Shown in pieces: positions 8,560 to 9,917 of a stretch of DNA of 64,000 nucleotides. Numbering within the stretch: position 1 is the stretch's first letter; each line of letters starts with the position of its first letter. The notes under the pieces are model-generated. The model ran no database searches. It saw nothing but the letters and a program-made list of their open reading frames with translations, and was not told where the DNA came from. Both the position numbers and the translations under genes were made by a program. This DNA comes from Algorimicrobium echini (GTDB lineage Bacteria > Bacteroidota > Bacteroidia > Flavobacteriales > Flavobacteriaceae), in the NCBI RefSeq assembly GCF_900115185.1, contig NZ_FOVN01000002.1:280335-344334 (forward strand), written 5' to 3'.

Positions 8560-9108
8560 TTATTTGGGTTCAGAAATATTTATAGGATATGCATGTTTTA
8601 CATCCTGAAGTTCGGACGATGATAGTTCCTGAATTGATTTCTGAAATTTATTTTGTGAATATTCATTTCGGAGTTTCGCATACGCTTTATTAATTTCATT
8701 CTGTACTTGAATAAACAGTTCATAAGAAGTTTGTCTATCATGTTCTAAAACAACTATTGCTTTTTGAGGGTTCTCTGAAGCCGTGGAAAGTTGTTTTCCA
8801 GAACAGTAATTACATGATTTATCACCGTTATTATTTACAAAATCGGAAACCAGGTTATTAATTTCCCTAAAGCTCACTAATTCTTTATTCATTAAAATTT
8901 CATTGTCATCATTTAAAATTATTCGTAAAACATTGTGTTCAGTAGCTGGTGTTGCACAATCATTAGTAGGGCAGAGGGCAGGTAAATTCCTATTAATGCC
9001 TGCATCTATAGATATAGTTGTTGTTACTAAAAAGAAAATGAGTAATAAAAATGCAATATCTGCCATAGAACCTGCATTTACTTTTTCGGAGTTCCTGTGA
9101 TGTCTCAT
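8560..9108 (-). CDS. ExbD/TolR family transport protein
   Basis: A 182-residue protein with one transmembrane helix near the N-terminus (GSMADIAFLLLIFFLVTTT) carrying the conserved membrane Asp that couples the proton gradient to TonB or Tol systems. The periplasmic part is unusual: it has a C-x4-C (LCPTNDC) and a C-x2-C (SCNYC) where typical ExbD proteins lack cysteines. No ExbB or TonB gene is adjacent, so it must work with partners encoded elsewhere. It is preceded by the terminator at 9171-9194, which isolates it from the small ORFs upstream. Confidence 0.88.
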   Translation of the reverse strand: MRHHRNSEKVNAGSMADIAFLLLIFFLVTTTISIDAGINRNLPALCPTNDCATPATEHNVLRIILNDDNEILMNKELVSFREINNLVSDFVNNNGDKSCNYCSGKQLSTASENPQKAIVVLEHDRQTSYELFIQVQNEINKAYAKLRNEYSQNKFQKSIQELSSSELQDVKHAYPINISEPK

Positions 9109-9170: not shown

Positions 9171-9194
9171 AAAAAAACCAGCAACTTGTGCTGG
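9171..9194 (-). terminator. Intrinsic terminator after the small ORF cluster
   Basis: Read on the minus strand, arms CCAGCA and TGCTGG (9178-9183 and 9189-9194) with a 5-base loop are followed by seven Ts (9171-9177). Its orientation fits transcription from the three small minus-strand ORFs at 9221-9634, and its presence supports that they are expressed as a unit. Confidence 0.8.
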
Positions 9195-9220
9195 CTTTTT
9201 TCATCTTTAACTAATTCAAA

Positions 9221-9352
9221 TTAATGGATATACCGTTTTGTTCCTGTCCACAATACGCCATGTTGAATACATCTTTTCCGGATTGTTATTCTTTTTTGAA
9301 GGTAGGTTATTAATTCATTGGAATCTCTGGAAATTTTAATTAATGCTTGCAT
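9221..9352 (-). CDS. Small basic protein, 43 aa, unknown function
   Basis: An uninterrupted 43-codon ORF (ATG at 9352, TAA at 9221) encoding a basic peptide that begins MQALIKISRDSNEL and ends WTGTKRYIH. I do not recognise it. It shares DSN[EQ]L and a C-terminal W-x-x-(x)-KR-aromatic pattern with the two 28-residue paralogues just upstream, and follows them on the same strand. The terminator begins 27 bases after its stop. The alternative is that it is a chance ORF. The shared pattern, position and terminator make a real small gene more likely. Confidence 0.5.
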   Translation of the reverse strand: MQALIKISRDSNELITYLQKRITIRKRCIQHGVLWTGTKRYIH

Positions 9353-9415
9353 GACTTGGTGTTTTAATCTATCTGCTGATAGACAGTTTTTACTGATTGA
9401 TGATTTTTCTAAATA

Positions 9416-9502
9416 CTATCTAAAACGTCTTTTACTATTCCAAGTATAACCCTTGGTGTTGTTCGTTCTTTTTGATATTTGATTGCTGTCTAAAGTTCTC
9501 AT
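9416..9502 (-). CDS. Small basic protein, 28 aa, tandem paralogue A
   Basis: A 28-codon ORF (ATG at 9502, TAG at 9416) encoding a very basic peptide beginning MRTLDSNQISKR and ending TWNSKRRFR. It is a paralogue of the ORF at 9548-9634. The first eight and last nine residues are identical, and the middle differs only by conservative changes (I/L, T/A, N/S, K/N, Y/F) plus two synonymous changes, without any frame shift. That pattern indicates coding constraint. The upstream sequence is also duplicated (CATCAATCA followed by an A-run). No signal peptide or membrane segment is visible and the function is unknown. Confidence 0.6.
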   Translation of the reverse strand: MRTLDSNQISKRTNNTKGYTWNSKRRFR

Positions 9503-9547
9503 GATGTTTTGATTTTTTATTGATTGATGAATTATTTACTTTAATGA

Positions 9548-9634
9548 TTATCTAAAACGTCTTTTACTATTCCAAGTAAAGCCATTTGTAGAGTTTGCTC
9601 TTTTTGATAATTGATTGCTGTCTAAAGTTCTCAT
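9548..9634 (-). CDS. Small basic protein, 28 aa, tandem paralogue B
   Basis: A 28-codon ORF (ATG at 9634, TAA at 9548) beginning MRTLDSNQLSKR and ending TWNSKRRFR, the first of three small minus-strand ORFs. It is separated from paralogue A by 45 bases. About one third of the residues are Lys or Arg, and the C-terminal SKRRFR suggests binding to nucleic acid or acidic surfaces, but that is speculation. The stretch 9635-9917 upstream holds no other ORF I can support and must contain both its promoter and that of the divergent secreted-protein gene. Confidence 0.6.
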   Translation of the reverse strand: MRTLDSNQLSKRANSTNGFTWNSKRRFR

Positions 9635-9917
9635 AATGTTTATATTTTTTTTGATTGGTATACTTTATAGACGACGCATGAAATATTTTGTTACAGTACT
9701 ATGCATTGCAAAGTAGTTATTTAACATATTTTTAACATTTAAGAGCTAAATATATCATTACCTAAAACATCAGAAAGCGCTACCATTACTAATGTTATCC
9801 TAAATTTTATTTTATGATTTATAAATTTCTCATATTTGCTATATATTTATCTTGTTTATAACATTTAGGTACAGTTTTTGAATTATGAGCTTTAATAAAT
9901 TTTCATGATCCTATAAA

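Follow-up and report, generated by a model that had tools for sequence, protein, structure and literature searches.

Tandem cationic microproteins of Flavobacteriaceae lie behind a composite promoter whose parts recur at PadR and ECF sigma factor operons

Autorepression is usual among PadR regulators. Examples of such repressors are found in Listeria, where they are thought to respond to compounds that act on the envelope (PMC6624303), and a dyad of HAAS and PadR has been proposed, together with PspC, as a membrane-stress system or switch (PMC11237479). A locus in the 64,000-nucleotide stretch of Algorimicrobium echini DNA that we analysed (the window) resembles this phage-shock or Lia-type branch in that a direct repeat and a palindrome are common to a DUF4870-PadR-PspC operon and to an operon of microproteins, which suggests that the microprotein operon works like the output of a HAAS-PadR-PspC-type system. 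The two operons differ in what follows the palindrome, which abuts an ECF-type promoter in the microprotein operon whereas the PadR operon has a primary-sigma TAnnTTTG promoter. A second likeness is to the ECF-anti-sigma-DUF4252 regulon of Bacteroidota, since the microprotein promoter has the same -35 and -10 boxes and the same spacing as the autoregulatory promoter of that regulon (25 of 25 cases); unlike in the usual regulons of ECF sigma and anti-sigma factors, however, the output here is an array of ORFs of 28-44 amino acids. No description of such microproteins was found in the open-licence PMC papers searched or in the passages of PMC11237479 consulted, and the same set of papers yielded no experimental description of the ECF-anti-sigma-DUF4252 regulon.

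The most informative part of the locus, overlooked in the initial annotation, is the PadR/ECF-type composite promoter that occupies 9669-9736. Nearly all arrays have this near-invariant block ahead of their first copy; it consists, in this order, of a GTTAA repeat spanning one turn, the palindrome TACTTTGnnnTGCATAGTA and TGTAAC-N16-CGTCT. In the window, where all three elements are on the minus strand, the direct repeat GTTAA-N6-GTTAA (9721..9736, 11-bp period) is a possible site of a third regulator, the imperfect palindrome TACTTTGCAATGCATAGTA (9697..9715) is the predicted PadR operator and, with 0 mismatches, the best match in its own genome, and TGTAAC-N16-CGTCT (9669..9695) forms an ECF-type promoter with the motif and spacing seen at the ECF operon. 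Repeats of the form GTTAA-N5..8-GTTAA, almost all of them with a period of 10-11, were present in 100 of 154 distinct microprotein promoters, against 5 of 2340 random 34-mers. When named GTDB genomes were searched with CATAGTACTGTAACA-N14..20-CGTCT, a pattern that joins the end of the palindrome to the promoter, at least 117 stretches were recovered, and the distance from TGTAAC to CGTCT was the same in 116 of the 117 matches listed, although gaps of 14-20 were allowed. All of the 80 records listed came from Flavobacteriaceae or from less precisely named Bacteroidota bins, and the genera, many of them marine, include Winogradskyella, Algibacter, Maribacter, Aquimarina, Aequorivita, Arenibacter, Gramella and Bizionia, among others. 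Of 399 genomes of the family, 157 contain a shorter version of the composite motif, as opposed to 2 for the reversed control.

At the level of sequence, both parts of this promoter are shared with the operons of two regulators. The runner-up to the palindrome in the same genome, with 1 mismatch in 16 specified bases and accompanied by the GTTAA repeat, lies upstream of the DUF4870-PadR-PspC operon, the PspC protein of which has a sub-threshold HAAS match. This arrangement extends to other members of the family: the palindrome precedes the PadR operon at 29 of 30 Flavobacteriaceae PadR loci, a GTTAA repeat with a period of 11 is present in 27 of the 29-30 PadR-operon promoters examined, and the TAnnTTTG element lies exactly 14 bp downstream at 28 of 30 loci. 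The -35/-10 motif, in turn, recurs in the same genome upstream of an ECF sigma factor gene (C15:260896-261402), which is followed by a gene for a one-span protein in the anti-sigma position and then by one for a DUF4252 protein (L329/L333). TGTAAC-N16-CGTC precedes this ECF gene in all 25 relatives with a placeable start, always with a spacing of 16, and one of the 25 upstream regions reads AGTAAC. Sequence comparison thus places the predicted operator of the PadR/PspC regulon, as well as the -35 box, -10 box and spacing of the DUF4252-linked ECF regulon, in front of the microproteins. The assignments to PadR and to this ECF factor follow from the sharing of motifs, which predicts binding of both regulators, and we consider a link to an envelope-stress regulon under ECF and PadR control highly probable. 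An ECF gene in the flanking cluster of eight loci was ruled out as the cognate factor, its upstream region being devoid of CGTCT. PadR was present in 57 and the ECF factor in 51 of 60 genomes of the family; because about 60% of Flavobacteriaceae genomes have no exact composite motif although both regulators are common, the peptides are not an obligatory output of the regulon. Within the single genome, the ECF motif does not stand clearly above background (9 sites against 11 for the reversed control, and 16 against 9 in another count). Its sites there include positions upstream of L093/L273 (a DUF456 membrane protein), L278 (a second DUF4870 membrane protein), L279 (ABC-type ATPase) and L286 (carboxypeptidase-D/TonB-like); these are candidate regulon members, mostly membrane or envelope genes, and serve as leads only, single sites being barely above background.

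The initial annotation had proposed that the two tandem 28-aa ORFs represent an uncharacterised microprotein family amplified by duplication, and the family-wide comparison agrees. Copy 1, MRTLDSNQLSKRANSTNGFTWNSKRRFR (9548..9634, minus strand), starts at the first ATG, at 9634, 34 nt after CGTCT, and copy 2, MRTLDSNQISKRTNNTKGYTWNSKRRFR, lies at 9416..9502 on the same strand. A recount confirmed that the two have the first 8 and the last 9 residues in common and that five replaced and two purely synonymous codons separate them, with no indel. A six-frame search of 399 genomes from the taxonomic family of the window gave matches to the 28-aa peptide (E<=1) in 152, a match frequency that is, by this count, far above chance; all listed places with E<=2.6e-4 span residues 1-27 or 1-28 and contain no internal stop, and many are tandem. 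The 60 loci that were fetched gave 98 distinct gene copies encoding 92 distinct proteins. These copies align without indels and follow the pattern MRTL[DN]xNQ[LI][ST]...WNxKRR[FY]R, with M1, L4, W21 and R25 invariant and R2, T3, N7, N22, K24 and R26 conserved at 90% or more. The third codon position is the most variable (entropy 1.13, versus 0.75 and 0.71 for the other two), pN/pS is 0.10 for pairs of about 90% nucleotide identity and 0.29 for pairs of about 80%, and tandem neighbours have a pS of 0.377 and a pN of 0.111, values which indicate that the family evolves under purifying selection. Homologues that would be missing, or frames that would be broken, were named beforehand as evidence against the proposal; homologues with a synonymous bias exist in many genomes, and the sole indel, an insertion of 7 residues in a copy from the same genus (L032), is in frame. 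Chance ORFs are ruled out by the family-wide matches and the codon-level selection. The sequences show both protein-coding conservation and operon structure, and it is nearly certain that these are real microprotein families.

The 28-aa peptide had no match near any cut-off in Pfam, NCBIfam or PDB, the hit to Pfam MobC (13.4 bits, against a cut-off of 23.2 bits) being attributed to chance, and no description of the peptides or of their sequence strings was found in the open-licence PMC papers searched. When 396 genomes of the order and 345 of the class were searched with a profile, no convincing member turned up outside Flavobacteriaceae. The scores leave a gap between E=5e-8 and E=2e-3, and the candidate relatives outside the family (E 0.002-0.1), which are partial and often contain stops, were taken as chance matches; by these searches the 28-aa family is confined to Flavobacteriaceae. 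Arrays hold one to five tandem copies. Five are present in Aquimarina macrocephali (L204); four of these are almost identical and repeat every 145 bp, which points to recent amplification. The in-frame spacing of 132 bp reported earlier is true of the pair in the window but is not a property of the family, as 42 neighbouring pairs elsewhere have start-to-start distances of 115-184 bp that fall into the three frames 13, 12 and 17 times. Because the spacings occupy all three frames, the copies are separate ORFs and not parts of one longer frame.

The leaders of these ORFs have a start context that is optimal for this phylum. Initiation in Flavobacterium johnsoniae benefits from adenines at -3, -6, -12 and -13 (PMC6847099), and among 350 microprotein leaders adenine was found at -3 in 331, at -12 in 333, at -13 in 303 and at -6 in 232. 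Since the A-rich leaders were not a criterion in the choice of ORFs, they argue for strong translation. The leader of copy 2 also contains the element CATCAATCAA (9520..9529, minus strand), which occurs again at 9393-9403 (minus strand) and recurs across genera in later-copy leaders; ATCAATC is present in 62 of 142 such leaders, versus 1.2 expected from mononucleotide shuffles, and the element is possibly a translational or regulatory one.

The array ends in a peptide of a different kind. The 43-aa terminal microprotein, MQALIKIS...WTGTKRYIH (9221..9352, minus strand), belongs to a separate family of 43-44 aa, for which a profile made from ten orthologues detected 32 loci, the window included (E<1e-9). 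It is the last ORF at each of the 32, located 34-104 nt past the final 28-aa copy, and its consensus is M....KIS.......T.E....N..........W.G.KRY.H; the copy in the window and its orthologue from the same genus (L032) differ with a pS of 0.59 and a pN of 0.11. Earlier this ORF had been regarded as a relative of the 28-aa peptides. It is a real conserved family and an operon partner, but homology to the 28-aa peptides is unsupported (1% probability in profile-profile comparison), and the DSN[EQ]L string on which the relationship was partly based is not conserved among the 43-aa orthologues. A comparison of the 28-aa family with the 37-aa peptides described below gave 7% (E 0.005), and the shared W...KR-aromatic end could be convergent.

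An intrinsic terminator, which had been predicted to close the unit on the minus strand, is indeed present after the 43-aa stop, in the form of the hairpin CCAGCA-CAAGT-TGCTGG and a T tract (9171..9200, minus strand), read from the sequence with the hairpin scored. The terminator scan reports this hairpin for the plus strand only, probably because the A tract of the minus strand pairs with the T tract, and the terminator is probably bidirectional. Directly downstream, on the same strand, lies an ExbD/TolR-like gene (8560-9108, minus strand; PF02472, E 2.8e-18), a homologue of which adjoins the array at about ten other loci but not at most. The unit occurs in several genomic settings, such as next to exbD and a pseudouridine-synthase-like gene or flanked by rpsA and cmk, and no conserved operon partner was found among the loci examined. 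That the ORFs serve as leader peptides of a downstream gene was ruled out, because a terminator closes the unit and the genes beyond it are unconserved and in many cases convergent.

The promoter leads to further peptides. At least 117 promoter loci were picked by DNA alone, 110 of them with sufficient downstream sequence, and tiny cationic ORFs come first at about 106 of the 110 (105 by a motif classifier and L223 by eye; the classifier is loose, which makes the split between peptide groups approximate). The strict WN.KRR family stands behind 45 of the first 80 loci, or about half. Other groups, likewise with tandem copies, are 37-aa peptides (MRTFIRNTPTESRRNSFFSxFKNSKRVQWAExRNHTH) in Maribacter, Eudoraea and relatives, NTKNRRSF...RRRYF peptides in Gramella, and, in Maribacter and Arenibacter, a first ORF of 38-42 aa with METLYPHQVRPRIYF..GSGW.TDR.YD. 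Mean net charge is +5.9 for the 28-aa and +6.1 for the 37-aa peptides, versus +2.7 for control small ORFs, and tryptophan is found in 96-97% of the two main groups versus 43% of the controls. Since the promoter-first search finds more members, protein searches with 28 residues evidently miss distant ones. Individual loci of these other, uncatalogued families (L154-L270) include L161, L180 and L186 with 37-aa peptides, L168 with peptides of 33 and 44 aa, and L193, L199 and L226 with peptides of 38-42 aa; in these families, as in the window, the last ORF is often unlike the tandem ones. Three loci, L181, L221 and L259, have no microproteins behind the composite promoter but a longer ORF that contains a signal-like segment (MKTT...KYLLTFLLSVLFTVNATAKI...).

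These observations suggest, with a probability that we put at roughly 0.6, that the microprotein operon is the dosage-amplified output of a PadR/ECF envelope-stress regulon and that its peptides act stoichiometrically on an anionic target. The operon comprises separately translated cationic microproteins, (28-aa)n and then one 43-44-aa peptide, and its transcription would depend on the ECF sigma factor whose gene heads the ECF-anti-sigma-DUF4252 operon. The DUF4870-PadR-HAAS/PspC operon encodes the PadR protein that probably binds the palindrome immediately before the -35 box, and the palindrome would gate transcription; as it touches the -35 box, PadR would control access of the ECF holoenzyme, and could do so by repressing or by helping. 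A disturbance of the envelope, the presumed inducing signal, would free the ECF factor from its anti-sigma factor and PadR from DNA. Large amounts of peptide could then be made, aided by the tandem copies and the optimal A-rich start context, and their W-x2-3-K/R-R-aromatic cationic ends would act stoichiometrically on an anionic partner, presumably the inner-membrane surface or RNA and the ribosome, as part of the adaptation to envelope stress.

The proposal that cationic peptides engage an anionic target is, taken by itself, a tentative one. Membrane-surface and RNA or ribosome targets appear nearly equal in merit, with regulator feedback, toxin action and a small RNA behind them. In the 28-aa peptide the helical moment is low (0.26), the mean hydropathy is negative and there is no membrane span; the low moment and missing span argue against a membrane peptide of the simple amphipathic-helix kind. 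Amphipathicity is higher in the 43-44-aa peptide (helical moment 0.56-0.61), and the predicted models are helical with low confidence (pLDDT 72 for the 43-aa and 70 for the 37-aa peptide, pTM 0.3). These properties bear on the idea that the products are ribosome- or RNA-directed stress peptides, small, Arg-rich and W-containing, which tune translation during envelope stress in the way of ribosome-associated proteins. A 28-aa peptide of low amphipathicity that lacks a membrane span would suit such a role, rRNA-binding tails typically have this size and charge and such KRR-aromatic ends, and bTHX and Sra offer a lead in being similar in size, in charge and in having a Trp near the basic end. Unlike bTHX and Sra, however, the microproteins are encoded in tandem copies under a stress promoter and gave only chance matches to PDB chains and no sequence match to a ribosomal chain, and their regulators are tied to the envelope rather than to translation; we consider this explanation rather unlikely, though worth keeping in mind. 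Less probable still is a feedback role, in which the peptides would bind the anti-sigma factor, HAAS/PspC or PadR to end or sharpen the response. Being driven by the pathway's own promoter would be in keeping with it, and the difference between the tandem copies and the last peptide would fit two partners, but conservation is much stronger, and distribution wider, in the regulators than in the peptides.

Two further possibilities have little in their favour by comparison with the output of an envelope-stress regulon proposed above. The very short, head-to-tail ORFs recall arrays of type I toxins of the Ldr/Ibs kind, which are silenced by antisense RNAs, and cationic peptides can be antimicrobial and might be released against competitors. 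In contrast to Ldr and Ibs, the microproteins are hydrophilic and cationic and lack a hydrophobic, membrane-spanning segment. No antisense promoter was seen, promoter-like sites on either strand being not above shuffles in a scan that used a sigma-70 consensus unfit for this phylum, and the strong, conserved ECF promoter and ideal start sites favour production over silencing. Neither a leader nor a transporter or immunity gene is consistently adjacent, and a toxin or antimicrobial is improbable. We give the same low weight to a transcript that acts as a regulatory RNA in the manner of sigma-E-dependent sRNAs, in which the ORFs would be secondary and base pairing would occur, for instance, through the repeated CATCAATCAA leaders. 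The transcript is short, ECF-driven and ends in a terminator, ATCAATC is strongly enriched (62/142 later-copy leaders against 1.2 expected), and Rfam gave no match within the window at gathering score, which leaves room for a novel RNA. Against this stand the codon-level purifying selection, with third positions most variable and the frame kept in all copies, and the optimal start context of the ORFs; the codon pattern disfavours a non-coding RNA as the whole story.

The three ORFs of the window are below most gene-calling limits and belong to no catalogued family, yet they lie behind a regulatory block that occurs in about 40% of the sampled Flavobacteriaceae genomes and ranks among the most conserved in this analysis. 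Whether they represent an undescribed envelope-stress effector arm of Flavobacteriaceae, with fast-diverging, copy-amplified cationic microproteins behind a conserved two-input PadR-plus-ECF promoter in place of sRNAs or Psp proteins, and with the promoter staying while the peptides turn over, is in our estimate evenly balanced. If so, a class of microproteins in abundant marine bacteria would be the output of an unstudied envelope-stress circuit, and one DNA pattern would offer a promoter-first route to fast-evolving microproteins that escape searches by protein. The role of every component could then be tested directly, since the sigma factor and the repressor are named and the promoter is precise.

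Members of the 28-aa family also occur in other settings. Single extra copies without the composite promoter are found at L035, L056 and L072, where a primary-sigma-like TATGTTTG element takes its place, and also at L037, L038, L039, L052 and L090. One genome (G005) contains nine copies at several places, and in several genomes a subfamily with the sequence MRTLDRNTLTEKPK... occupies the opposite strand between rpsA and cmk (L041, L062, L064 and L088).
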